64,000 nt of DNA, taken from Ectocarpus siliculosus (taxonomy: Eukaryota; Sar; Phaeophyceae; Ectocarpales; Ectocarpaceae). The notes beneath the pieces are model-generated. The model worked only from the letters and a program-made list of their open reading frames with translations. It had not been told where the DNA came from and ran no database searches. The position numbers and the translations under genes were made by a program. The DNA lies in assembly GCA_000310025.1 (NCBI GenBank), contig FN649726.1, forward strand, positions 2,513,961 through 2,577,960, written 5' to 3'. Within the stretch, counting starts at the first letter, position 1. Each line of letters opens with the position of its first letter. Positions 1,369-59,690 of this stretch are shown here, one piece after another.

Positions 1369-4300
1369 CTAGACTAGAAGGTCTTGTGCTGCTTTTGCCG
1401 GGTCTTCGTTCCGCATGAAAGCCTCCCCTACGACCACGCAAGAGATGCCGGCGGCCTTCGTGCGGTCTGACGAGAAAACGTCGGGAAGAGGGGGGGGAGG
1501 GCAGACGGATCGTTCAGCGAAACTCGAGCCAGCGGCGAAAAAGCTATAGATCACATAAGCGCTTGGATCCAAGCTCTAGGTTTGTAGGTTCACGACCGCC
1601 GTCTGTACCTAGCGTCGCGAGGAACTAAAGTGCAGACCTTGAGCAGTTGCTATGAGGGAAAAATTGCACGTCAATCACATTGGGGTGGGTACAGCAAAGT
1701 ACAAGCTACGCCAACAAAGTTGCTGATGCTCACCAAGATCTTCTTTCGTCTGCAGGCCGCCCTCGACCAGCAGAGTGATGTCCTTCCCTTCCAGCCCTTT
1801 TTGTACTGCAACATCGAGATGGGTAAACCAGGCAAACCAGGCAACAACTTGAAATGGCTGCAGGGCAGCAAAATTATTGAGAATCCCTGCGAGGTGTGGG
1901 GAAAACCTTTGGAAACCTCAAGGCACACTAAGACCTGCCAATAATTGAAAACAGTCTCCATCGTGCACAAACGCCTTCGAAACCCCTGATGCCACATATC
2001 GCTCATTCACTCAACAACAGCATTTGCTCACCCTCTGGGTCCCCCAAGATTCGTTCGACCCGAGACGTGTCCAAGGCCCATGTAGCCATGTCCCGGTTGC
2101 TGATGGACACCGCTCGGATGCCAGGCAGGTTGAGTGCCACGAGCATCTGCTTCACCGAACTCACCGACACGATGCACTGCATTCCTAGCGCATTGGAGAT
2201 CTTGTGAAAATACATCAAGTCCTGCATGAACAAGAGCACAGCAGCGAGGGACAACAGCGAGGGACAAACGATTAACTGCGATCAGGGAATAGGCGGGGGA
2301 GTTAGGTATCATTCAGAGCTGATCCTTTCCCCGTCGTTACGCAAGGTCTTGGGGACGCCCTCGGTTCATTTGCACCCTACGCGTGATAATTGATACATAA
2401 GAGCCAGACAAAGACGCAAAACCCACCCCCCTTCTTCTCGGTGTTCGAGACAAAAACACGGGTAGTGTAGCTTTCTACTTGTACAACACGTTTCCGCAAC
2501 GCCCAATCACGTGCCTGCCTCCCCACAGTTGAGTTTGTTTAACATTCCCACAGAAACAACAAAACGGCCGTGAAGCAGCACAAGCCGGTGCTACTACGCA
2601 GTGTACCGTACCCCGCAGCAGTACCCACCTTCGCCGGAAGAGCCGGTGCGATGAGTTTGAGAGCGTCAGCCCCTGCCAATCTCGCTTGGTAGATCTGGTA
2701 CGGATATACCACCACATCGCTGCACATGACCGGAGTACTCACCGCGCTCTGCACAGCAAAGCAATTATCAGCACACGGAAGGGCAGGTGGTGAGTTCTGA
2801 TTGTCGTTCGCGCGCAACGGAGAACAAAAAGACGGCAACACACAAGACACTGAAGGAGCGGTCGGCCGTCCTGTGGACCAAGGTGATCATTCATCGACCA
2901 CATCAATTCCGACGTGACGAAAAGGCCAGAGAGAGACAACACGACAATGTATCCCAAACCACAATGGTCCACAAGGTGCGCGTTCTCTCCTCTTCTAATA
3001 AACAGACGGAATCGTTCACCCGTATGCTAGTAAGATCCTCGTAGGAACAGCCAAAGAACTTGGGGTCCGTGTTCACAGCAATAGCTGCCACCCCGGCTCC
3101 CTCCAGGGATCGAGATAACTCCACCACATCAAACTCTCCACGTCGCAACTTCCCCGTCACTGGAGCCGTGCGCTTAACCTGCAGGGGGAAGAAAAAACGC
3201 ACAAAACGACCCTGTAAAAGGATGCAGCAGGAGATAGGTACCTGCGGTTCGCACATGCTATGGGTGCGTCCAGCGTGTCACAGCCTATCACAACCGGATA
3301 CAGACCGACAAACACAGCTTCGGCCCAAACTCCGAACAAGTACGACAAGCGCAGTGCCCGATCATTCTTTTGTCGTGCGACAACGACAGCACGGCCCATG
3401 GAACCTGTAGTCGCCTACCTCGGCTAAGATGGCAACGCCGCCATTCCCCTTTCCGTTGTTCAACGCGGCCACAACATCCCTGGGTTTGTTCTTCTCTTCG
3501 AGGTTGAACATCCGGCAACGGCTGACAAGCAAGCTCATCGGCCAACGGTCGCGGGAGCGGTCCACCGCCGCTTCCTTTTCCCAGACCAAGGCCTCGAGCG
3601 TGTTCCTGCAGACACCACATCACCGCGCCCAGTAAATCGCCCACGTGCCGCCGTGCATAGGGTAACGTTCACACAAACCACGAGCAGAAGGGTAAGAAGA
3701 GCAGCAAGCCAAGACAGTTGCCAATGTAACCAGGTTTTACCGCAAGTTTGGTTGCAAACCCAGGCCCTTTCGAAATCGAACTGAGCGAGGGGACACCGAT
3801 GTTGGCGCGAGACACGAGCCAAGAGAGTGCGGTCGACGATCCATCGGCGCAGGCTGTACGGAGGACATCATTCCAACGGCGCCAGAAACGATGCTGCGGA
3901 TGTATCTGCATGAACGCAACACGAGTGAAACTTGAGCTAGAGAGTCGTCATCGTCTCCCCAGGCCTCTCGTCTCACAGGACCTAAATCCTACGCCAGAAA
4001 AGGACGGACAGCATGTTTGATTTTCACCCACTTAGGTTGCGCCACACTCTCGGCGACGCTGTAGAGCACAGGCCCCGACAGAACAGCCCGGCCGGCTTTG
4101 ACATCACGGCGCTGCACGACGAAGTCGTCGCTATCGTCCCCAAGGATCTCTTCCCCATCCTCGCCCACGACAACACCACCTGTGCACAACCGGGGCATAT
4201 GAGGTTCGTGGTCAGCAGCGGTCTATTAATAGGAGGAAAAAGCCTTGTCTCCCGGCAACACACATCCGGACAACTGCTACCAGTATACCTTTGGGGGCGG

Positions 4301-7300
4301 ATATCGCAACATTGCAACACTGATAAATGGTGTGGCATAGGTCACGAACGAACGCACCCGAACAGCACCTATCACATGTAGAGCCAGGTTGCGTTGACAC
4401 ACACCCCATCTTTTCTTTTTACGCGCCGAACCATTTTCGTTTGAAGTGCGATGAACGACACAGCACCTGAACCAACCACGCAAATTTCTCACGTGCGTCG
4501 CTCCCGTCGTCGACGGTTGTCGATCCCTCCCGTGGCTCTACGGTAGTGCGCCGAGCAGTGATGGGAGAAAACACAGCCACGGATGTGCTAGATCCGAAAA
4601 GAGTGGTTCGCGATCCTTCAGACAAAGCACCTGGGAGTGGTGAGTAAAGAGGGGGGGAAGGAGAAGAAGGAGGAGAGCGAGAGAGGGCTAAGGCGACCAG
4701 TAACGAGCAACAGAGTTATAGGTGACTCGGCAGACAAATTCGAGCACCGCGTGTGACCGATCAACATGTACAGATGCGGCGTTGCTCTCATGGGGTGTAG
4801 GAACTAAGGGGGTGCCCTGAAGATTGTCCCACGTGGTATGCGATTTGCAGCGAGCGTACATGACATGTACTAATGTTTCATTCCTCAACACTAAAACACC
4901 ATCGCCAATGCCAAAAAGTGAAGGCCCCTTTTCATTGCAAATCGACGTTCCATCTCCCTTCGCTCCCGACGAAGACGTGATATTATTCTTCGGTTCACCC
5001 CCGTCTACCCTCCTCCTTCAAGGGGCTCACCTGCCACCCCATTGGTGAAGAAGCCTCCCAACGGTACGGGCACCGTCTTGAAGACCGCAGAGCTTTGGTA
5101 GTGGTCCTCCTCCCACAGAGTTCGTCCCCTGTCCAAGCCAGGGAACAACAACGCCCCCGCCGCTCGGAACGGCGTCGTCTGCCCCTCATCTCCGGCAGAG
5201 GGCCCCGAGACCGCGCTGTCCACGACGCCCACGTTCTGGGTAGCTTCTTCGATGTCGCCGTTTCCGTCCCTTGCATCGCTCGCCCCCTCCCCGGATGATG
5301 ACGCCAGGGTTTCCAATAGCTCACGGCGTTTGTAAGCCAAGAGGGCTGCCTGGAACTCGTCCCCCGCAGCGAGTCTGGGTGCATCGAGGCACATATTTTG
5401 GGTGTACACATGTGCGTCGTCGTTCGGCAACACAAATATAATTCCACCCATGGCCAATCAAATGAGTTAACTTAGATCGCTTGGAGGTTTGGCCCGGACT
5501 TCTCGGCAAAAGACATCTGCATGATCGCCGTAGGCTTCGAAGCAAGGGTTGTTTTTTTCGTACCTGTCTCGCACGAAGAGTTGGAGGCGTGCCCCCGGCT
5601 CGACGGAGTCTCCAACGGTAATCGAGCCATCTTTCAAGCTAGTTCTGCCGATCACGATCGCAGCGAAGCAAACAAAACGAAATGAAACCTGCACCATTTT
5701 GGGTGGGTGCTAGACAAGAGCATGGAGAAATTCAAAGGTGGGAGAGTAACGAATGCTCGACGTGTTCGGGCGAACAAATACGCACGTTTGTTGGGTGAAA
5801 CGTTAAAATCGCTGCATGTAGGGTCCTCGTAAAGCCAGTGTAGCGTGCAACGTTCGGGATTTAAGAATGCTTACAAGTGGCGCGCTTACTCTACGGTGCT
5901 GCTGGTTTGGACACCGCGCTACCGCTTCTGCACACACACGCGCGTGCCGCCTGACCTCAGGACCCCCTGCACCACGAAGTGGTCCCTCCCGGTGCTGATT
6001 GCCATCATCTCATTGGCCGTGTTCCCGATTAGCTCTGGTGCGACGCCAACTAGCATGTTGGTCTGCACGAGCCTCTTATCTTCGTCGGATAGCTTCTTCT
6101 GCACCTGGAGGGACCGAGCGCGCGCTATCGTTCGTGAACAACGCTGCTAGTAGTACTACCGGGGATGGAAAGGCTTGTGGCAGGGCATGTTTCTGTTACG
6201 CTACAACTCCTGTGGATTGCCGTGTCAATTGTGGCAAGCGACGTCACTTGAGAGGCCCCGACTGACACCGTGGGTGGCGCTTTGGTGGATATGAGTGCGA
6301 TTGCCACCCATTTCCCGCCACATTCTTGCACATGCTAAGTTCATCATGACCGTAATAGAGCAAGGCTACGTGACAACGGTCAGTTAGCGTTGAGACCGTG
6401 TATAACACATGGAAACCATGAGCGAATGAATGCGCACGTAGATGAAAGCATGTCGCTTCCTTCCACAAAGGAAAGTAGATAAAAACGAAATGGGCTTCGA
6501 GTTTCTCGGTTGCAACATTGCTCATATACCACCAAGCACTCAAAAGAAAAGAACATGCAATACCGGAGCGCCGGGTCATACCTGCTTTATCATGGCTAGC
6601 GGCGGCAGTGCAGGGCTTATCCAATCGTCTTGTCCCTCGTCGTCAGCTCCCCTTACCGCGACACGAAGGCTCTTCACCATTGGCCCATCCACCTTGTGGC
6701 GACCGTCGAGGAGGGCGAATAAAAAGTTAATCCGAGTCACCGACACCCACAACCACGTGATACCATCTTGGCTCTCTAAAACTCCACACCCGCGTGTAAA
6801 CAAAGCAGCATCACGATTCGGGAATCATACGAATCGGCATATACAGGGGTAAAGCGAAGCAAGAACTGGCCGGTGGGGATAGGCGGCGGAAAGGAGGAAG
6901 CACAAATAGACAAATGCCATCCCCATGTGGTTTCCAGCTCTGAGTCGAAGGACTGGAGGAAAGATTCGGAAAAAATGTATGCTGAAAGAGTAAGAATACC
7001 TTGTCTGCGTTGAACGTTGGTCCTACTCGCCTCGCTCCCTGAGAAACGAAAGAGCGCATTCGGATGTCCCCCGTGAGCGATACGCCGACCATGCCTTCCC
7101 TGTAGAACGCACCCTTTTCCATTACGGTCCCAGCCGTCCCACCCTCGCCAAAGAACACGCAAGACCTTGTCAGACTAGCGTCGTGCGTTTCATTGTGGAG
7201 AGACAACCAAGGGGGGGGGGGGGGGGCAAAATTGGAAAGGGGCCCCCAAAAACCCCCCCCCAATTCAAAAACCCCCTTTGCCCCGGGGGGACAAAAAAAA

Positions 7301-10260
7301 CAGCCAAAAAACAAAAATGAGGCGGGGCCAAAACGGGGGAACAAAAGGTTACCCTTTCAACCGTTTTTAACCGGCCCCCCCCCCCCGGCAAACCGTTGAG
7401 GCGAGGGATCCAATCTTCTGGGACCGAGGAAATGCTTGGTCCATGCCCCCCATATAGTCCCCCAAGGGGTCAATCGAAGCCGGGGTCGAGTACAACAAAA
7501 ATATGGGTTCTCCAACCCCCCCTTTCCCACCTGCCCCTGCGTCCCCGTCTGCATCTGTCGCGGGGATGTCTGAGTCACGAAGCTGGACGGCTCTTTTCCA
7601 GACTGCCGGAGGATCGAAGGGATCAGGGACGTCCATGTCGGCGAGGTAGAACGGTTGAACCTTCACCCCCGGCAAAGTGGCTAGGGTCAACCCCAAGCAG
7701 GATCTGTTCTCTATCTAGCGATCACGACGGAGGGGCAAGAAAGCGGCGTAAAGCGTTTTAGTCAAGTTGCTGTCACTTCAAGCGCAACCGTAACCTTGCA
7801 GTGCATAAACGCGGAACCTGTCAGAGAAAAAAGCATAAAGTGAGACAAGGTCATGGAGGAGTGGCCTGGGCTGCATACGCCCGACAGCAATGTGGCCAAA
7901 TCTCACCACCTTTTGCTGAATGATCACCCACGAGCTTCTACGGAAGCAGTAGAATACTCAGGAGTGTTACCGTACCTATGACACTAACAAGTCAGGTCAC
8001 GTGTTGTTGTACCCTATAGGGCCCACAGTGCCGTGCCGTCAAAGCTTGCGATAAATAGCGATTGTGCCCATCTGTGCTCTTCGGTGCGCAGTTTCTTACG
8101 AAGAGAAGTTGCCCGAAGACCCTTGCTCACCTCTACAACGCGTCCTTTGCCCTGCATGCCTATCGCCCCAGCCGAGCTGCAGCCCACAACTGCGCTTAGC
8201 CCGGGCAAAACTTTCCTGAGTTCTGGCACCACATTCTCCAANNNNNNNNNNNNNNNNNNNNNNNNNNNNNNNNNNNNNNNNNNNNNNNNNNNNNNNNNNN
8301 NNNNNNNNNNNNNNNNNNNNNNNNNNNNNNNNNNNNNNNNNAAAAAACCACCCAAGCCCTTTTCAGACAAGGTTGGTGGGTTTCATTGGGGAGAGACACC
8401 CAGGGGGGGGGGGGGGGGGCAAGATTGGATAGGTGCCGCCGAATAGCCGCGCGCAATTCGAATACTCACGTTGCCACGTGAGGACGAAGAAGACAGCGAA
8501 CAAACAAAGATGAGGCATGGCCAAAACGTGGGAACGAAAGGTTACACGTTCAAGCGTTTTTAACCGGCCACCCATCACCTGCTAACCGTTGATGCGATGG
8601 ATCCGATCTTCTGGGACCGAGGAAATGCTTGGTCCATGCCCGCCATATAGTCCCCCAAGGCGTCGATCGAAGCCGTGGTCGAGTACGACAGAAATATGGG
8701 TTCTCCGACCCCCGCTTTCCCACCTGCCCCTGCGTCCCCGTCTGCATCTGTCGCGGGGATGTCTGAGTCACGAAGCTGGACGGCTCTTTTCCAGACTGCC
8801 GGAGGATCGAAGGGATCAGGGACGTCCATGTCGGCGAGGTAGAACGGTTGAACCTTCACCCCCGGCAAAGTGGCTAGGGTCAACCCCAAGCAGGATCTGT
8901 TCTCTATCTAGCGATCACGACGGAGGGGCAAGAAAGCGGCGTAAAGCGTTTTAGTCAAGTTGCTGTCACTTCAAGCGCAACCGTAACCTTGCAGTGCATA
9001 AACGCGGAACCTGTCAGAGAAAAAAGCATAAAGTGAGACAAGGTCATGGAGGAGTGGCCTGGGCTGCATACGCCCGACAGCAATGTGGCCAAATCTCACC
9101 ACCTTTTGCTGAATGATCACCCACGAGCTTCTACGGAAGCAGTAGAATACTCAGGAGTGTTACCGTACCTATGACACTAACAAGTCAGGTCACGTGTTGT
9201 TGTACCCTATAGGGCCCACAGTGCCGTGCCGTCAAAGCTTGCGATAAATAGCGATTGTGCCCATCTGTGCTCTTCGGTGCGCAGTTTCTTACGAAGAGAA
9301 GTTGCCCGAAGACCCTTGCTCACCTCTACAACGCGTCCTTTGCCCTGCATGCCTATCGCCCCAGCCGAGCTGCAGCCCACAACTGCGCTTAGCCCGGGCA
9401 AAACTTTCCTGAGTTCTGGCACCACATTCTCCAATCTCTCCGCGTTCCCGTATATACTCGACACGTGTATCAGCGCCAGATCTATAGACGCACCCTCGGG
9501 GAGTTGCGCCAGGGCTTTAGCAGCCGCCTGAAAGTCGCCGAGAGATTCGCCGGTGAGAGGATGGCAACTGCACCAACTACGTCAAGTACACGGCATTGAG
9601 ATAAGTCGAGGGTTTGGGTCGTACCCAAAGGGCTCCTTGGTTTTTTGTTGGTGGAATATTTCTCCGAGGTTGGCTTACGACAAAAGTTGTCTTGAAATGA
9701 AATCAGCAGCACTCGATGAAGAAAAGCGGAAGGCTCGCACTTATCTCTCATGTGATAGCGGGGATTCGACGCCCGTCCGGCGACACGATGTTGTTTAGTC
9801 TACACCGCACCTAGACTGCTTAGTGAAGAGGCCAAGTGTAAGCTGTTGCTGCGGCTGCTTCTGCTGCTGTTGCTGCTGTGTCAACATAACCAGCTAGACT
9901 GTCTTCAGCGCAGAGCAGCACCGCGTGGGTTGTGTAATATGGACGCTATTGTTGGTATATTCGCCTGCGTTGCCCGTCGAACTCGATGACAACCGCCGAT
10001 TACCAAAGACAACCGCCAGCGTGCAGCCCGCCGCGCTCCCCACAGCCAAGCTTATTGCAACTTGAAAAAAGTGCATGGCGTAGTGCACGTACACCAGTGC
10101 AACGTCCAAGAACGGTGACCGGCGAACCAGCTCCTGCTCTATGAAGATCTCCTGTAAGTCAACCTACCTCAGCTATGGCGGGCACTAGTTCCTTCTTGGT
10201 AGAGATCGATGACGCCCACACTTGCGCAAGGCTCTCGTCCGCCTGATCTTCGGTGGCCAT
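1369..10260 (-). CDS. FIST domain - indole-3-glycerol-phosphate-synthase-like fusion protein (889 aa model)
   Basis: Sixteen exons were read on the minus strand: 10260-10168, 9527-9324, 8907-8579, 7165-7000, 6773-6582, 6104-5956, 5644-5564, 5374-5031, 4630-4493, 4179-4032, 3605-3419, 3178-3020, 2748-2629, 2221-2032, 1805-1734 and 1466-1369. All 15 junctions keep phase and total 2670 nt. Residues about 10-265 match FIST_N (GCSSAGAIG, PIFLSYSTT, GVSLTGD). Residues about 265-550 match FIST_C (LVGVAPE, ITVGDSVEPGARLQLFVRD, LFPGLDRGR, PLGGFF, TTLFGSSTSVAVF). FIST is a predicted small-ligand sensor. From about residue 600 follows a cyanobacterial-type IGPS: LYSVAESVAQPKNTLEALVW, AEVKRTAP, YQIYQARLAGADAL, SNRDM, VEGGLQTKEDL, VVVGEAFMR. 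Several catalytic residues are replaced (see findings). The start is the only ATG after an upstream in-frame stop, and no transit peptide is seen. Alternative: two separate genes, since the FIST frame can run on to a stop at 4419 and an in-frame ATG lies at 4198. The exon 5 start is the least certain boundary. Confidence 0.75.
7190..8241. other. Assembly duplicate of 8383-9434 (exon 3 and part of exon 2 repeated)
   Basis: From about 7400 to 8241 the sequence is essentially identical to 8590-9434 at a constant offset of 1193 bases. 7200-7400 is a degraded version of 8390-8590, full of inflated homopolymers beside a long G run. The copy ends exactly at the 100-N gap. Duplicate exon 3 (7386-7714) and truncated exon 2 (8131-8241) should be ignored in the gene model. 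This is two unmerged contigs and not a tandem duplication. Confidence 0.9.
8242..8341. other. Assembly gap (100 N)
   Basis: A run of 100 N, the conventional placeholder for an unknown gap. Its left flank repeats the sequence to its right, so the true gap length is probably negative (overlapping contigs). Confidence 0.98.
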
Positions 10261-11396
10261 CCTACATGAAGTGACCGTAGAGCAACGCTGTGCGCACCTT
10301 CTTGTGGCGCTCACGCTAGAGGAAGAAATCGGCAAGCGACCGGGCGATGGTGAAAGAGGCCATTTTGCACCTGCAGGGGGCAGGCCACGACGACGGACAA
10401 CAAACAACACATCCCGTGAGGGATTAATGTTTTACCAGCGAGAGCTTAACAAAGCCAGGTAAACGTCTGGAGCTGGAGAAATACGCAAGAGTCGCTGACC
10501 TGTTCCCCATTCCCGCAGCAGGTTGTGGTGCTGGCCTAGGGTCTGTCCCAGTTGAAGTCAACGGCGACCACCTTCCGTGATGCAAATTGAAGTTACCGAG
10601 CTGTGCACGACTGCGATACACTGGGTGCATGCAATGCGAAGGGCATATCTGTACACGCGCCTTCTGTACGGTAGTGCGGCTGGATAGCAGCAGCGGTATA
10701 CGACCCCTTCGTGAAATAATGGATGAGGATGGCGCGATCAAACTCCAACACATGCGTTCAACAACAACACAGGAACGTCACACAGCAGTAAGTTGCCAAC
10801 AGGACGCACGTGCGTGACACGGATCCACTGATACCGCAGTGGGCAAAGGAGTACCCACATCAGACGAACTTACGCCAATGGTACTGCCGGTACAGCGACA
10901 AACGCAGTTGGTACGTTGTTGCGTGGCTTGAATAGAGAATGTCAAGGTGTCTGCCTGCGAGCTAACGCGACTCCATACTCACGGGTGCGTGTGAGCATGT
11001 GCCCACGATGCGGAGGCTGTGCGAAAGCAGCCACTCTCCCGACGGAACTAAAAGCTGGGCCCGTCGCTAGAAGAGCCAGCAGGGGGCCATATGCCACCCG
11101 GTGACCTGATCGTGAATCACGAGGCTTCATCGAGACAGGTGGTACTGCTTACCAGCTGGCCGTGAGCTGGACTAGGACCGAGAGACCGAGCAAACGATGC
11201 AAATCTCGCCGCTTCGGGAGTTGAACACCCGAGGTTTTCTAGGCGGCAAAGGCCCGGGTAAAGGGGACCAAGGAGGCCAAAAAACAGATCTTGAAAGATC
11301 CACCGGCCAGAGATGATCCGATCCATCCACCACCCCTACCTCTTCTCGCGACAAGTCGGGTAGCGAGACGCCCGCACTAAAGCATCGCACGTTTTC
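10261..11396. other. Divergent intergenic region between FIST-IGPS and BBIP1
   Basis: About 1.1 kb lies between two outward-facing start codons. It should hold both promoters and 5' UTRs, and possibly a non-coding or targeting-peptide exon of the FIST-IGPS gene. No such exon could be identified, and no repeat or RNA gene was seen. Confidence 0.4.
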
Positions 11397-48755: not shown

Positions 48756-51700
48756 TCATTCCCGTGTTTGCGGGAACGAAAAATCGTAAACGCCTCCGTC
48801 ACCCATCCCTTGGCCGCGGGCGTGCACCCCTCTGCGCATCTCCAGGTGAGGATCGCCAACAGCCGTGGCGCGGGCTGCCGAGCCGCTCACCGTTGCAGAC
48901 CCGCCGTTTGCCTCCTGGCCTGGGAACGACCTGAGGCTGCTTCTTGACACGCCTGCTCCCAGCACCCGAGAACCGTCGTCGTCGACGACACTGTCATGTG
49001 CACGGCCACCCCAACCCCCCGAGCTGCTCGCGGACACTCCTCCCGTACGGATCGTAGCACTTCCGGTGCTGCTCACGACGTCCGTGCCTGGGGTCTCTGG
49101 GTCTAAGACTTGCACGCCGCGGAGCCCCCGAGGCTTCCCGTCACCGTCGCTGTTCTCGCTTCCAGACGAGTCGAACACGCTGCTCTGCCCGGGTTCCCAG
49201 GTTCGCCGGGTTGCTGCCGGTTTGACGATGCCTGCGCCACCACCAGCGCTTTTGGCTGTCGTGGGTGTCACCAGAAAGCAACAAGTTTCTCGTTAAAAAG
49301 GACATCCAAGCGCTCGACCGGTACTTAACACGAGCAGTCGGAACTGACCATGGTTGCGTATGAACTCACTGGCTGGCTGCCCACGCTGACGACCAAGTTT
49401 CAAGCTTCAATCGGACAAACGGGACAAGCTCGCATCATCACACCGTATGCAAACGAGAACGAGAAGAACGAGAGCGTGTTATGCGGTAGAGCAAGACTCG
49501 AGACACGTGAAAAAAGTGGTGCGAAGGTTGGGCAGAGGGTCGTACGCGAAAGAAAGGCCTTTACACCACCTCTCTGTGACACAGAACTACAAGGGGGAGG
49601 GGACGAGGGAAAAACGCAGTAAATTTACCTGAGGTTTGACCACGCCCGCCGTTGCTTGCACTCTTACTAGTGTGTCCGCCAGAACTGTCCCGCTGACCGC
49701 CAGCGCCGCCAGCTGCCTTGCTCCGTTGACCACGGGTGTCACTTCCTGCAGTGCCTCGCCCACCGCCACCACTGCCCCGTTCGTGACCAGCTGCAGCATT
49801 CGCATGGTCGCGGACCCTGCCGACGACAGCCCCGTTGCCCGCGACCTTGACCCGCCCCATGCTGCCGCTGCCTTCGACCGCGCGGGGTTCGCTCCGCGAG
49901 TGCCTTCGTGTCGCAGAAACGGCTTTGTTCGAACCGTAGTAGCCGACAACATCATCGTGATCCATTACCACGGCGGGCTGCCCCCTTCCGTTGCGCATGC
50001 CTGTGGGCGTCGACTGCCCACGGCCGGAGCCAAGGTGGTAGCCGACAACATCATCGTGATCGATTCCCAAGCCGGGCTGGCCTCTTCCGTTGCGCATGCC
50101 TATGGGAATCGCTTGCCCACCGCCGGAGGCAAGGTGGTAACCGACAACATCGTCGTGATCCATTATCACGCCTGGCTGACCCCTTGCGTTGCGAACACCT
50201 GTGGGCGTCGATTGCCCACGACCAGAGGCACGGTGGTAGCCCATAATATCATCGTGATTCATTCCCACGCCGGGCTGGCCCCTTCCTCGCATGCCTGTTG
50301 GGGTCGATTGCCCACGACCGGAGGGAAAGCGGTAGCCGACAACATCATCGTGATCGATTCCCACGCCGGGTTGGCCCCTTGCGTTGCGCATGCCTGCGGG
50401 AATCGATTGCCCACCGCCGGAGGCAAAGCGGTAGCCCATAATATCATCGTGATCGATTCCCATGCCGGGTTGGCCCCTTGCGCTGCGCATGCCTGCGGGA
50501 ATCGACTGCCTACCGCCGGAGGCAAAGTGGTAGCTCATAATATCATCGTGATTCATTCCCACGACGGGCTGGCCCCTTCCTTTGCGCATGCCTGTGGGCG
50601 TCGATTGCCCGCGACCGGAGGTGCTGTGGTAGTCGATAACATCGTGTTGGTCGATTCCCAAGCCAGGTTGGCCCCTTCCGTTGCGCATGCCTGCGGGCAT
50701 CGGCTGCCCATGGACGACGTGGCCGCTAGCGTAACGGTCGCTGCCTCTTGAATAGACCACACCAGCTCTGGAATTCAAGCGTGCGTTTACCGTCGCGGGG
50801 GATGGGCACGCGATGTCGTCCTGGCTCTCGCCCATAGAGTTCCCCCAGGCGGCACGGATACCCGCTAGCGTGCCTCCTCCCAAAGGTCGTCGCCGGCCGG
50901 CTGCAATGCCGGGCATAAGCGAACGTGAGTCGACGAATTCGTTCTCGCTCTCGCTCTCATCATCCAGAATGTGGGCCCGGACGCTGTTGACACCCACCCT
51001 GGGGTTATGGATTACGTTTATCTTGTCGGTTGAGGTATAAGGGATGTCCTCCTGGCTGTCGTCCAGCGATGAGCCCCACGCGGCGCGGATCCCTGCAAGC
51101 GTGCCCGCGGACAGGGCTCGCCGGCGGTTGCCTTGAACGCCGGGTATGAACAAACGCGGGTCAACCTCTTCCATCTCGCTCTCGCTTTCCTCGTCTTCCT
51201 CGATGATGCCCGTGGCATAGACAGCGCCCACCCTCGAGTTCCGCATGGAGTTGTTGGTCTCCGGTAGGGGACAGGCGATATCGTCCAGGCTCCCGCCCAT
51301 TGAGGTGCCCCAGGCAGCACGGATCCCGGCCATCGTGCCTGTCGACGGAGGCCGCCGGCGGTTTCCTACATCTGCAAACCCCGATCCGATTGCGTCGCGT
51401 TGACTTCTGATACTGGTGGCTCCTACCCTCGCGTTCAACTTTGTGTTGATCGCTGCCTGCGAATCAAACTCCTCGCTGCCCATGGAACCTTTGCCCCACG
51501 AGATGCGTCGGTTCTGCTCAGCTGCACGGGCGGCGGCGTCGGGTTTTGACACTGGTGCATCAAACTCGCTCGTGGACGGTTGCGGACACGCCCAGCTGTA
51601 CCGCCTTACCTCACCGTCCGCGGGCGCAGCCGTAGCAGCGGTCGCAGCAGGAGCAGCAGCGGTCGCAGCAGGAGCAGCAGCGGTCGCAGCAGGAGCAGCA

Positions 51701-52944
51701 GCGGTCGCAGCAGGAGCAGCAGCGGTCGCAGCAGGAGCAGCAGCGGTCGCAGCAGGAGCAGCAGCGGTCGCAGCAGGAGCAGCAGCGGTCGCAGCAGGAG
51801 CAGCAGCGGTCACAGCAGGAGCAGCAGCGGTCGCAGCAGGAGCAGCAACGGTCGCAGCAGGAGAGGAAGCGGTTGCAGCAGGAGCAGCGGCAGGAGAAGC
51901 AGGAGAAGCAGCAGCAGCAGCAGCAGCAGCAGCAAGAGCTGTGTTCTGCTGTCTGAATGCTGGAGAAGGCGACTCCGCGAAACTCGAATCCGGAGGACAG
52001 CTGGAGGAATTGCCGCGGATGCCATGAGGGTTGAGCTTGCGGTTCAAAGACTCCATGACAAACATCTCCGTGCTATCATCGCTCTCAGACGTCGCTTTTC
52101 TGAGCCCCCAAGCCTTTCGAATCTCCGCCTTCTTGCTGGTTGTGGGCTTGGCTCCGTCCAAGGTTATTCCTTCCACACTGTCCTTGGCGGACAGAAATCG
52201 CGCAAAGCCTGTACGGCGAGCGCCCTTGACGGCAACGCCGTGCGCATCATCGCCAACGGCGCTCGACGGCCCCGTGCTTGAGCTTCTACCTCGGCTGTTC
52301 ATCCTTTTCAAGCTCGCTCTCAACCCAGAACCAAGCGCGCTCGAGGTCTTCCTGTTTCTTCCTTGTGTGGCCATTGCTGCCGTCTCGGAAACGTCCTGTC
52401 CAGAACCCGAACCGGCCCCCGAAGGGCTCCTGCTTCGAGCCCTGGGTCTGCCGGCCGCACTCCCATCCCTGCCACTGGTACTCCCGCCTGCTCCGCTGCC
52501 GGCCATGCCAGCTGCGCTGCTCCGCCTGGACCCAGCAGAGTGCGCAGAGTTAGACCAGCTCATATCACCGCCCCCGATGCCGCCGCCGCCGACGCCCGCG
52601 ACTCCCGCAAACCCGCTAGATATCGACGCAGACTTAGACCCACGGCGCCGGTGCCCCGGTCCGTCGGCCGCGGGCCCGCTCGCGCTGGAATCTCCCACGA
52701 CAGACATCCCCGCACCGAAAAAGGATCCCGATGTGGAGACGTCCATGTCACCCGGAGAAGGGGTGCCGTCCTCGGCCGTGACATGGCTGCCGGTCTTGGC
52801 CGGGCTCTTGGGACCCAGGCCCTTCTGGCCGACGCCTCCGCCGTTTCGACCGCCCCCGCCGTAGCGGTCAGTGCTGAACTCTGGAGGGCAACCGTTGATC
52901 GGGGCCATTTCTGCAACGTTTCTCCGGAGACTGTTGGGACGCAT
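48756..52944 (-). CDS. Large low-complexity repeat protein, 1271 aa, function unknown
   Basis: Two exons, 52944-49629 and 49255-48756, join in phase 1 (donor GTAAAT, acceptor ACGACAG). The whole protein is Gly/Ser/Ala/Arg-rich and looks disordered, with no signal peptide or membrane helix. From N to C it holds a basic Ser-rich region with many RS and RRxS sites; a related AEIRKAWG motif (about 52100); an Ala/Pro tract of about ten 7-residue units of the AAAPAAT type (51630-51900); three ~85-residue modules centred on GIRAAWG followed by DDI or EDI and an acidic stretch (about 51340, 51080, 50870); eight tandem 33-residue units (SGRGQSTPTGMRNGRGQP then IDHDDVVGYH, 50735-49915); and a Gly/Ser-rich tail continued in exon 2. 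No known domain. The RG-rich repeats hint at RNA or phase-separation behaviour, but that is speculation. Confidence 0.7.
49915..50735 (-). repeat. Coding minisatellite: eight 99-bp units
   Basis: Eight consecutive in-frame copies of a 33-codon unit (one is 32 codons) encode SGRGQSTPTGMRNGRGQPGV then a GIDHDDVVGYHFA-like half. Copies differ at a few positions (RGQS/GGQS, STPTG/SIPAG, DDV/DDI). Open frames also persist on the opposite strand because the period is a multiple of three. Confidence 0.9.
51630..51930 (-). repeat. Coding 21-bp minisatellite (Ala/Pro repeat)
   Basis: About ten near-perfect copies of a 21-bp unit (GCAGCAGCGGTCGCAGCAGGA on the + strand, here named only as the period) encode alternating Ala and Pro-containing heptads. 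It is followed by a pure (GCA)n run encoding about ten Ala. Confidence 0.9.
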
Positions 52945-53786
52945 AATATTTGACAACAAAAAAAACAAAAAACACGAGAGCAACCGAGGCAAGAGATGCG
53001 GAGTCACGTGTCGGTCGGGCGAGGCGGGTGATCCAAGCCCCTAGCTCGTCGAAGCGAAGCCAAAACAGGCGAGACTCGCAGCAAGGTGTACGCGATCAAG
53101 GCACTGGAGTTCGAGCTCATGGCTTCAAAGACTCGTACATACAGCTTGCGGCTTGCACCGAAAACCCCAAAATCCATTAGAATTTACGACTGATCATTCC
53201 CCGCTGAGTCCTGCCGGGTGTTCTTACCTGAGAGGCCTGCAACCCACATCCCCAAGGAGGTCAGTCTGCCTCGACCTCTCCAGCTTTGCGGGGACAACAA
53301 CAAGCAGTAGCTGTTCACGAGTAAAAACAAAAGCCGGCACACATAAACAGTCGGCAAGAAGCAAGAGCGAGAGGGAGAGACAGGCAGGGGAAATGGACAG
53401 AGAATGAGCACAAGCAGGGCACCGTATTCGAAGCGGCCAAGTTGGTCCGCCTCATATATACGCGCTTCAGGAGTCAGCCACTTCGTTTGCTGCTACTCTC
53501 ACGTCTCCGTGAGCTGGCTGCCACCAATGGACCGCATTCGACGCTGTTCTGCCTGCCCCCTCACATTCAGACCGGGACCCCTCTGCCTACCCGACTGGCC
53601 CCGTACGTTCCCACTGCGAACGCCTCTTTGCACAAGAAATTGCATCATTCCAGTTCACCACTGAAAGGCGGGAGAGTGTTCCAGGCAAAACAAAGGTGAT
53701 GCCCAAGGGCGTTGTTCACCTTCCGATCTTGCTATTACACTACTAGCGCAAGGTCGCAAACGCTGCACACAGACCACAGAACACAC
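52945..53786. other. Intergenic region upstream of the repeat protein
   Basis: This should hold the promoter of the repeat-protein gene and the unidentified 3' end of the membrane-protein gene. No convincing exon was found. Confidence 0.35.
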
Positions 53787-56882: not shown

Positions 56883-59690
56883 TCACCTCCTCTGAGCATA
56901 CAACTCTATCCAAGAGCACGGCACGCATGTCACTCCATCAGCCGTGCCACACGACCGCACGTCGAAGCCGCGCTGACGCAACAGCACCAGCAAGCCCTCG
57001 TTCGGGCTGGAATCCAGCAGGCTGCGCGGGTCCGGGTGGTGGCGTCGGGTAGGGTAGGTTCGGGCACGGTGAGGGAACAATCAGAATCGACAGCAGCAAC
57101 CCCATTGAGGAGCGAAGCGAAACAGAGACTAGAGGAATTCAAGGCTGCACTTGCAGCGTCTTGTGGTCTCAAGACAACTTTCTACGGCGGTTCAGACTCC
57201 GAACCCAAATGACAAACAGCAGTGCAAACCGCAAAACGTTCTTCGTGAAAACCCGAGTGCCAGCCCCCCCTCCCCCCCCCACCCCCACCCTCNNNNNNNN
57301 NNNNNNNNNNNNNNNNNNNNNNNNNNNNNNNNNNNNNNNNNNNNNNNNNNNNNNNNNNNNNNNNNNNNNNNNNNNNNNNNNNNNNNNNNNNNGGGGCATA
57401 AAATTTTTTTCCAGGGGCAGGGGCAGCCTTGTATTTCCTTCGGCGGTGCCACAGGCCGCCAGGTGGAAGCCGGGGGGAGGCACCGCCCCCACCAACCCTT
57501 CTTTGGGGCGGGATTCCACCAGGTTGCGGGGTTCCGGGGGGGGGCTTGGGGTGGGGTAGTTTGGGGCCCGGGGGGGGACCATTCGGATTGGCCGGCGGCA
57601 CCCCCATGGGGGGGGGAGGGGAACCGGGGATTGGGGGATTTCAGGGCGGCCCTGGCGGGTTTTGGGGGTCCCAAGAAAACTTTTTAGGGGGGTTCGGAAT
57701 CGGACCCCAAAGGCCAACCACCGGGCCAACCCCCAAAACTTTTTTGGGGAAAACCGGGGGGCCGGCCCCCCCCCCCCCCCCCCCCCCCACCCGCGCACTA
57801 CACCGTGGGATCAAAAGACTCACATGAGTGCAGGTAGCCCAGCCGCTGTCTTGGAAAAAGAGTTGAGGAGAGGAGGCATCGCCCCCTCCCCTACGGGAGG
57901 CTGGGCCAACCGCCCGTCTTCCACCAAGCAGCGGTACTTGAACATGCACTGCGCGCCCCTGCACGTTGTCTGGACGCCGAAGTGGGACTCTCCCACGTTG
58001 TCCCACAAGGCAACTACCGCAAGGTGAAAAGCAAGCACACCAGCGGGTGGGACACAGCAGTGGACCTGGGTTGATTTCACCGCAAAGCAAAGCCATCGTG
58101 CCAACGCGAGAGACAAAGCAGAGGTGGTCGCCCGGGAAGGCACCGAAGACCCCCATCGAGCCACTCAAGCGTTAGGTGGCCGACCGTCCATCTACAACCA
58201 TCTCGACAATCCACGACCTGTTTCAACGACATGCTGTGTGCCACGGGTTGATTGACCTAGAGTAAAGTGAACTCTTGGGACCCTTTCTTTGCTTCTCACA
58301 TTCTAGGGACTGAGACGCGGCGAGGAAGGACTCCATGGGGTGGACTGGTCTAACCGGGCACGTGACACACGCCACCTCCTCCTCCGCCATCAGCAACCGC
58401 CACATTGATTCCAAGTCCTCGAGACCGTTGACCTGCGGCAACATGAACAATGACCGCACAACCGTCGGCAAGATCCAGAATCAGAGAGAGGTTTCGATTG
58501 CGGAGGGGAGAAGAGTCGTGAAAACTCTTACCACCAAAAGAAGCGCCGCCGTGGAGGCGTTTTTACTCACTCAAGACTTTCGGAAGCCAACAGAACGTCA
58601 ACTGCGCGCAGTAGAGGCTTCTCCCTTCTCACTCGGTGCCAACACCCTGAACCTTGGTCCACTTCCATTTCGGAGCGCATGCCCCTCTCCCAGCCATCGG
58701 GACTGGATCAAAAGAGGCATCCAACACGACCAAAGTTGTGTCTCGTAAAGTTGTCCATGACAGAGCGTGACTCCGTTCGCGCAGAGGGCACAAACATCAA
58801 AGCCCGTATATGTAGCACAAAAGAGGAAGTCGCCGATTCTACGTCTGTGGCTCTCACCGGATGGCCACTGTCGGCGTCTAGAAGATACACCACATCGGGC
58901 TCCACAGCCTGAGGTTCCAACATGAAACATGCGAACGGAGAATTGAAGGCGGCAAACACAACGATGTGCGGAGCAAGGATAAGAGAACGTGCGGCCTGCC
59001 CCGCGAGCAAGAAGAAAACACGGGAAGAAGCGACCCACATGCACGTGATGAGAACAACCAATGCACCTTACAGAGGCATCACTGCACTGACTCACCTCGC
59101 CCCTAGACATCTTGACAGGAAGGATGTCGTTGAAGAATGTGACCAGACTGTTTCGCTTTCCGACTGGAAGCGAGGGGCCCTGTCGTGTGCGCGTTCCACG
59201 GCAGTGGCGATCGGGTACAGTAGGGCAAACAGGCGCGGGTGGTTGTATTGCGGCAAGTTTTGGCAAGGTTCTCGTGGAGAAGGCGTCCACTGCCCGGTGA
59301 CAGTTGACGACCAGCAACACCTGCACAAGAGACATACAATCGCCCTGTGCATAATTTCTTTTTGAAAACAACGACACAGCGCGAGGATGAGGATTTGCCG
59401 CCTCCATGGAGTTCCACAGAAGAGGGCAACCAAAGCAGAGGTTGCGTCCGCGAACCATCGCAATACAATGGAATTGACCCCGGTGCCGGCCGGTCGCGCG
59501 CCCACCATGTATTCACACGCCCCCCCAAGGCACTGATCCTATCTATAACAGCAACTGCACCCATTGGCGTTCACCTTGACGTAGAGGTCAAAGGGGATGA
59601 GAGTCTTGTCTAGCGTGCCGGAGTGGTGGATGCACCCGGAAACCTCGGTCGCGCTCTCATCAGTCACTCGTAGAAGCCGCTTTAGCACCT
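56883..59690 (-). CDS. Upstream exons, same or separate minus-strand gene (partial)
   Basis: Candidate exons, judged by coding-like composition next to donors: about 59690-59590 (CIHHSGTLDKTLIPFDLYVK), about 59250-59100 (frame uncertain), about 58910-58860 (AVEPDVVYLLDADSGHP), about 58460-58280 (ESMWRLLMAEEEVACVTC), about 58015-57825 (ALWDNVGESHFGVQTTCRG) and about 57060-56885 (GLLVLLRQRGFDVRSC, donor GTGAGG). The Cys-containing, non-hydrophobic sequence would suit an ectodomain for the membrane exons downstream. No family is recognised. The block 57393-57790 is a degraded duplicate and not an extra exon. Confidence 0.3.
57293..57392. other. Assembly gap (100 N)
   Basis: Placeholder gap. The right flank (57393-57790) is a poor-quality, homopolymer-inflated copy of 56893-57292 on the left, again ending in a long C run. 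Confidence 0.97.

Follow-up and report, generated by a model that had tools for sequence, protein, structure and literature searches.

AMR1 (Pf3D7_1363700) is a Plasmodium protein with the fold of indole-3-glycerol phosphate synthase (IGPS) that emerged from an apicoplast biogenesis screen, in a parasite that is itself a tryptophan auxotroph (PMC6380595). Formation of the apicoplast requires AMR1. In AMR1 and two homologues from Vitrella key residues of the active site are missing, and these proteins fail to rescue an E. coli trpC mutant; the IGPS-like group is lost only together with the plastid, and a new biochemical function, as yet unknown, has been proposed for AMR1-type IGPS-like proteins (PMC6380595). 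An earlier study did not find the conserved catalytic residues of IGPS in the AMR1 protein (PMC3637116), and isoprenoid synthesis is impaired when AMR1 is lost (PMC8022201). As for the FIST domain, that of NosP binds heme for NO sensing (PMC12570481), and in FBXO22 compounds react with a cysteine of the domain, which also touches the target being recruited (PMC13316043). Here we describe a gene of the brown alga Ectocarpus siliculosus in which a FIST part and a diverged IGPS-like barrel are joined in one open, in-phase gene model. It lies on the minus strand of a stretch of 64,000 nucleotides (assembly GCA_000310025.1, contig FN649726.1, positions 2,513,961 to 2,577,960 of the forward strand), the whole of which we call the window; positions given below count from its first letter.

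Our overall reading, in which we place slightly more belief than doubt, is that this nuclear gene of 18 exons encodes a plastid-imported protein with a ligand-sensing or regulatory role, whose barrel is not an IGPS and which stands functionally beside the AMR1 group. The domain families, and the IGPS-like group, are known, while their combination is new. A previous statement that no fusion of FIST to the fold of a tryptophan-pathway enzyme had been described agrees with our literature search, which found none and covered mostly titles and the starts of abstracts, with subscription papers and preprints outside its range.

Domain architecture and gene model

Between 10260 and 1369, 17 exons with GT-AG borders join in phase without an internal stop and give a product of 917 amino acids; an earlier note on this DNA had counted 16 exons in the same interval. 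Together with an upstream exon (exon 0) the full model comprises 18 exons, runs from 11130 to 1369 on the minus strand and encodes 1003 amino acids. Using hmmscan against Pfam, we found in the 917-residue product the families FIST (PF08495; residues 48-273, E-value 3.3e-14, 53.7 bits against a cut-off of 23.2), FIST_C (PF10442; residues 309-490, 3.3e-10, 40.6 bits against 28.5) and IGPS (PF00218; residues 647-915, 9.3e-41, 140.1 bits against 27); for the 1003-residue model, 86 is to be added to these residue numbers. The in-phase path from FIST_N through FIST_C into a TrpC-type barrel that the earlier note had proposed is borne out by the open frame and by all three families exceeding their curated cut-offs. 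Of the extent that it gave the gene (1369-10260), the 3′ end at 1369 stands, and the 5′ end does not, the presequence exon at 11130-10983 having been missed.

The FIST_N part is encoded by exon 2 (9324-9527) and exon 3 (8579-8907), each taken from the clean copy of a duplicated segment, and by exon 4 (7000-7165). Beyond exon 5 (6582-6692), included from the gene model, the FIST_C part extends over exon 6 (5956-6104), exon 7 (5564-5644) and exon 8 (5031-5374), the last of which carries an insert rich in Gly, Asp and Glu, and the FIST part ends in exon 9 (4493-4630). Exon 10 (4032-4179) and exon 11 (3741-3905) form a linker. The IGPS-like domain starts in exon 12 (3419-3605) with NTLEALVWEKE and continues through exon 13 (3020-3178), exon 14 (2629-2748), exon 15 (2032-2221) and exon 16 (1734-1805) to exon 17 (1369-1466), which holds the end of the barrel and the stop codon.

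The IGPS-like barrel

Like canonical TrpC, the barrel is matched by PF00218 over its whole length (model positions 2-254 of 254). We aligned it to 11 canonical TrpC rows from 9 genera, eight of them from plasmid records and three from Desulfosporosinus; the plasmid rows were chosen for spread among the 40 matches listed of 62, and one more (H22) served as a query only. The barrel keeps 19 of the 40 columns that are invariant in the TrpC rows. Among the residues invariant in 11/11 rows, the Lys of LRKDF is replaced by Ser (MCSDVV, exon 14), the Glu of VEVH and the first Asn of GINNR are both replaced by Ser (exon 15), and the Ser of ESG is replaced by Gly (exon 16); in addition, both Ser residues of SPS are lost. 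In Sulfolobus numbering we take the first four of these positions to be Lys110 and Glu159, the general acid and base, together with Asn180 and Ser211. The equivalents of Glu51 (at the end of exon 12), Lys53 (exon 13), Arg182 (exon 15) and Glu210 (exon 16) are kept, as are glycines late in the barrel, a region which we assume to be that of the phosphate site.

The equivalents of Lys110, Glu159, Asn180 and Ser211 thus set the barrel apart from canonical TrpC, as do the lack of a PRAI match in the gene product (Pfam) and its scores in NCBIfam. None of the NCBIfam TrpC cut-offs, which belong to bacterial and archaeal models, is reached: the best model, NF001372, gives 216.8 of the 370 bits required, and the next best 160.5 bits. 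The cut-off of NF001372 is passed by 1 of 14 control genomes. We understand NF001372 to be a model of the cyanobacterial type, and make no claim of a cyanobacterial origin for the barrel. A sequence comparison with solved structures gave 49 distinct sequences at E ≤ 0.001 for the barrel, comprising natural and engineered IGPS chains, and no match at E ≤ 1 for the part before it. To judge by these residues and scores, the barrel does not function as an IGPS, and the protein would not make indole-glycerol phosphate and is probably not a tryptophan enzyme.

The opposite view, in the direction suggested by the earlier note, is that of a working IGPS whose FIST sensor regulates tryptophan synthesis. 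The strength of the PF00218 match speaks for it, as does the failure of our searches to turn up a canonical IGPS elsewhere in the genome, but both catalytic residues are lost, the best NCBIfam TrpC score falls below its cut-off, and an IGPS-PRAI fusion is reported for Ectocarpus (PMC3942023) and for Nannochloropsis (PMC3499364). We consider a working IGPS very unlikely. Designation as a tryptophan-pathway enzyme is not supported, given the loss of both catalytic and two substrate residues and scores below the NCBIfam cut-offs, and the suggested regulator of tryptophan or indole metabolism finds no support, since the predicted presequence and the IGPS-like group (PMC6380595) point elsewhere.

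Could the barrel instead have been neofunctionalised for another substrate, with FIST as an allosteric or docking domain? This is a branch of our overall reading, with which its odds overlap. The retention of nearly half of the TrpC-invariant columns, including Glu51, Lys53, Arg182, Glu210 and the late glycines, is in keeping with it, and loss of AMR1 raises DOXP and MEP, for which a link to pathway cofactors or an indirect effect has been suggested (PMC8022201). However, we cannot point to a second active site, and the severest losses fall on catalytic residues. We regard a new enzymatic activity as possible but doubtful.

The junction between the FIST and IGPS-like parts

By its splice sites and phase, the intron at 4180-4492 connects the FIST and IGPS-like parts. 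As the earlier note had read it, the preceding exon ends in GACGCAC/GTGAGA at 4493 (the slash marks the exon border), the acceptor is GTGCACAG/GTGGTG at 4179, and the codon CGT is restored. Splice sites were scored with a matrix derived from the gene's own sites, each left out in turn (17 donors and 17 acceptors). The donor of this intron scores 7.5, joint fourth of the 17. Among the acceptors scoring above 4 between 4420 and 3890, a stronger one (5.5) at 4248 shares this frame, but its use would not produce a fused protein because of an in-frame stop just before 4222. Coding scores, in bits per codon, were set against a background of 606 overlapping stop-free stretches of 49 codons from the introns other than intron 4. 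In the fused frame, exon 10 (4179-4032) scores 0.43, the third-highest value of the 18 exons and above all 606 intron stretches (maximum 0.196), whereas the read-through of exon 9 to a stop at 4419 scores -0.19 and a possible new start, MPRLCT (ATG at 4198), scores -0.49.

Could the two parts belong to adjacent genes on the same strand, one for a plastid FIST protein and one for a separate IGPS-like protein, with phases that fit by chance? Several features count in this direction and against our reading: the junction acceptor is moderate (3.9, 12th of 17), the donor of the next intron is weak (1.8), and exon 11 (3905-3741) has a low coding score (-0.09), while candidate starts exist at 4198 (ATG) and at 3871 (ATGATG, within exon 11). 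Nowhere is the model weaker than at exon 11, and a second gene would most readily begin there. On the other side, the fused frame of exon 10 scores as coding, unlike the two read-through alternatives, and two genes would have to fit the 3′ end of the first and the promoter and 5′ leader of the second within about 220 bases (4419 to 4198) or about 120 bases (3989 to 3871); moreover, no signal peptide was seen by eye at either candidate start. Because the phases fit, exon 10 scores as coding and both read-through alternatives are negative, a single-gene fusion is the better-supported model. We hold with good confidence that the FIST and IGPS-like parts belong to one gene and infer that they share one transcript; two adjacent genes we consider unlikely.

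Assembly at the locus

Intron 4 contains an assembly gap of 100 N at 8242-8341. The segment before it, 7170-8241, duplicates 8363-9434 with its copies of exons 2 and 3, and was taken as lying outside the gene. The two segments align over 1072 bases without gaps at 94.8% identity; they are identical from 7549 on, and the identity is 77% at 7249-7348. This pattern is what would be expected if the ends of two contigs overlap and their tails are of poor quality, and exons 2 and 3 therefore appear twice. In the window intron 4 measures 1413 bases, which by arithmetic would become about 220 bases if the two contig ends were merged.

A gap and a false duplicate within one intron might raise the suspicion that the gene is an assembler chimera. 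Yet both lie in the FIST_N part, at least about 2.5 kb from the FIST/IGPS junction, a single overlap of 1072 bases accounts for gap and duplicate alike, and there is no N between 8242 and the start of the window. A chimera is extremely improbable.

Predicted plastid import

Heterokont plastid proteins carry a signal peptide, an ASAFAP motif and a transit peptide, and nearly all have a Phe directly behind the point of cleavage (HECTAR paper, PMC2567999). The same layout, with an ASAFAP-like Phe between signal peptide and transit peptide, is found at the start of the 1003-residue model. Exon 0 (10983-11130) was identified from sequence, phase and hydropathy. Its ATG at 11130, with an in-frame stop upstream, opens the sequence MKPRDSRSGHRVAYGPLLALLATGPAFSSVGRVAA/FAQPPHRGHMLTRT, with the signal peptide before the slash and FAQPPHRG after it, the cleavage context reading VAA/FAQP, and the exon ends at the donor CCC/GTGAGT (10982). 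It joins in phase to the acceptor GCCTGCCCCCTGCAG before 10370, which at 11.2 has the joint highest score of the 17. The frame beyond this acceptor, in exon 1 (10168-10370), runs through 36 residues to the start MATEDQ that had been used earlier, and this part resembles a transit peptide, being rich in Ser, Arg, Pro and Thr and free of Asp and Glu. From the Phe to the earlier start there are 51 residues, with no Asp or Glu, 9 Arg or Lys and 14 Ser or Thr.

We scanned both strands of the 64 kb for a Met with a run of hydrophobic residues and a motif of the AF type, a scan that was designed after the VAA/FAQP site was known. It returned two sites, and only the VAA/FAQP site is then followed by an acid-free stretch; in a shuffle control of 20 windows such sites occurred at 0.1 per window, or 0.25 without the acid condition. 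The coding scores of the presequence exons, which lie at background (-0.19 for exon 0 and -0.03 for exon 1), speak against this part of the model. Import of the FIST/IGPS-like protein into a heterokont-type plastid is a prediction.

Other IGPS-fold genes and relatives of the two parts

The genome of 189,456,909 bases in 492 contigs was searched for further members of the two families. Searches with the FIST part gave matches at this locus only (11/11 pieces). A locus on another contig (G000:C23:1330792-1335957, plus strand) was found through a weak match to bacterial TrpC (E 3.9); an in-phase assembly of six exons there encodes a barrel of 272 residues that matches PF00218 at 1e-28, its 5′ end not being established. 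It is a second diverged IGPS-fold gene. The catalytic Lys and Glu are present in this barrel and 20 of the 40 columns are retained, but the Arg of GINNR and the Glu-Ser of ESG, among others, have been lost. On contig C9 (about 2154050-2156500, plus strand), the profile of the canonical rows alone gave one piece at 5.7e-6 and two weak ones (0.22 and 2.9); the significant piece has Arg at the position of the catalytic Lys, and the locus shows signs of being a third such gene. In a simple plus-strand scan neither locus showed a convincing presequence, and near C23 there are a gap and poor sequence. Two other candidates were set aside. The weak match at C14:1876302 has no other IGPS-like exon in the listed frames and was taken by eye as chance, and a minus-strand open reading frame at C1:2480478-2480756, about 33 kb before the start of the window, appears by eye to be another TIM barrel, similar to KDPG aldolase and not an IGPS.

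A canonical IGPS or IGPS-PRAI was not found with PF00218, NF001372, Desulfosporosinus TrpC or E. coli TrpCF, which counts against our reading. The PRAI family PF00697 gave no candidate in the genome, and a DNA pattern of the GINNR type gave one match, as did its reversed control. Searches of this kind have little power where exons are short, and the absence of a canonical IGPS is not shown by them because PF08495 missed E 0.001 even for the present gene. Table 1 of PMC3942023 credits E. siliculosus with an InGPS as well as a distinct InGPS-PRAI fusion, and a figure legend of PMC3499364 shows IGPS-PRAI as a fusion in Nannochloropsis oceanica. The label IGPS is also attached to an Ectocarpus contig, Esi0107_0059 (PMC2718500), which does not enter the case presented here.

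Among prokaryote genome contigs, one scan with the barrel started from 55 candidate stretches and gave three matches, each of them from Desulfosporosinus. Plasmids yielded 62 records for the barrel and one for the FIST part, the latter from an actinobacterium, and viral contigs yielded none (0/11 for the FIST part and 0/22 for the barrel).

The FIST part resembles NosP, the heme/NO-sensing protein of bacteria, in having FIST_N and FIST_C, but it reaches 13.5 bits with the NosP model, whose cut-off is 450 bits. FBXO22, a component of an SCF ubiquitin ligase, likewise has FIST in a eukaryote; here, in contrast, Pfam gives no F-box match in residues 87-1003, and the predicted destination is the plastid. 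In the literature searched we found no report of FIST inside a plastid. The label FIST C domain protein is given to a Chlamydomonas gene in PMC3439250, which does not enter our argument, and in PMC5462543 the words “indole” and “tryptophan” have no match.

Other features of the window

On the plus strand, an open frame at 21206-22312 matches Enolase_C (1.3e-20) and has the appearance of exons from a gene of the enolase type, and another at 43075-43581 matches methyltransferase families weakly, below their cut-offs (CMAS, 1.7e-5). On the minus strand, the open frame at 32636-33418 matches LysM (3.4e-11) and, weakly and below the cut-off, PDZ, and that at 49564-53040 encodes 1159 residues without a Pfam match at E 0.01; simple peptide repeats occur on its opposite strand around 51400-52300. 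ARAGORN predicted a tRNA-Leu (AAG) at 57685-57777 on the minus strand, which is unlisted by the gathering search of Rfam, in which the window has no match.

Discussion

The protein resembles the AMR1 group in its IGPS fold with lost active-site residues and in a plastid destination, here a predicted one. In these two features it fits the group, to which it may belong. Several observations tell against the comparison. FIST is unreported there, the word “fist” having no match in PMC6380595 and PMC3637116. In the complementation experiment the expressed proteins were undetected, and poor expression was not excluded (PMC6380595). Orthologues of the AMR1 protein outside Apicomplexa were not found in the earlier study (PMC3637116), and this argues against a simple link to AMR1, although PMC6380595 has relatives from Vitrella.

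On our overall reading, the nuclear gene product of 1003 residues would be imported into the heterokont plastid, where its FIST module would recognise either a small ligand or a partner, while a phosphorylated metabolite would bind to the barrel or the barrel would carry out another reaction. The role of the protein would then be in the upkeep of the plastid and not in tryptophan synthesis, as proposed for PfAMR1 and its Vitrella homologues. We also put forward a more speculative hypothesis, which we ourselves think rather improbable: the protein could be the free-living algal form of an AMR1-type plastid protein that still carries FIST, with plastid biogenesis gated by a ligand through FIST and the barrel acting as a receptor for a phosphate ligand and not as an enzyme, in which case the parasites would have retained the barrel while losing or replacing the sensor.

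If these ideas are true, a photosynthetic relative that combines a dead barrel with a sensor would offer a clue to the mechanism of AMR1-type proteins, and in a system that could be tested in a diatom or a brown alga. It would also place FIST, a domain known from bacterial sensing and from a human ubiquitin ligase, inside a plastid.

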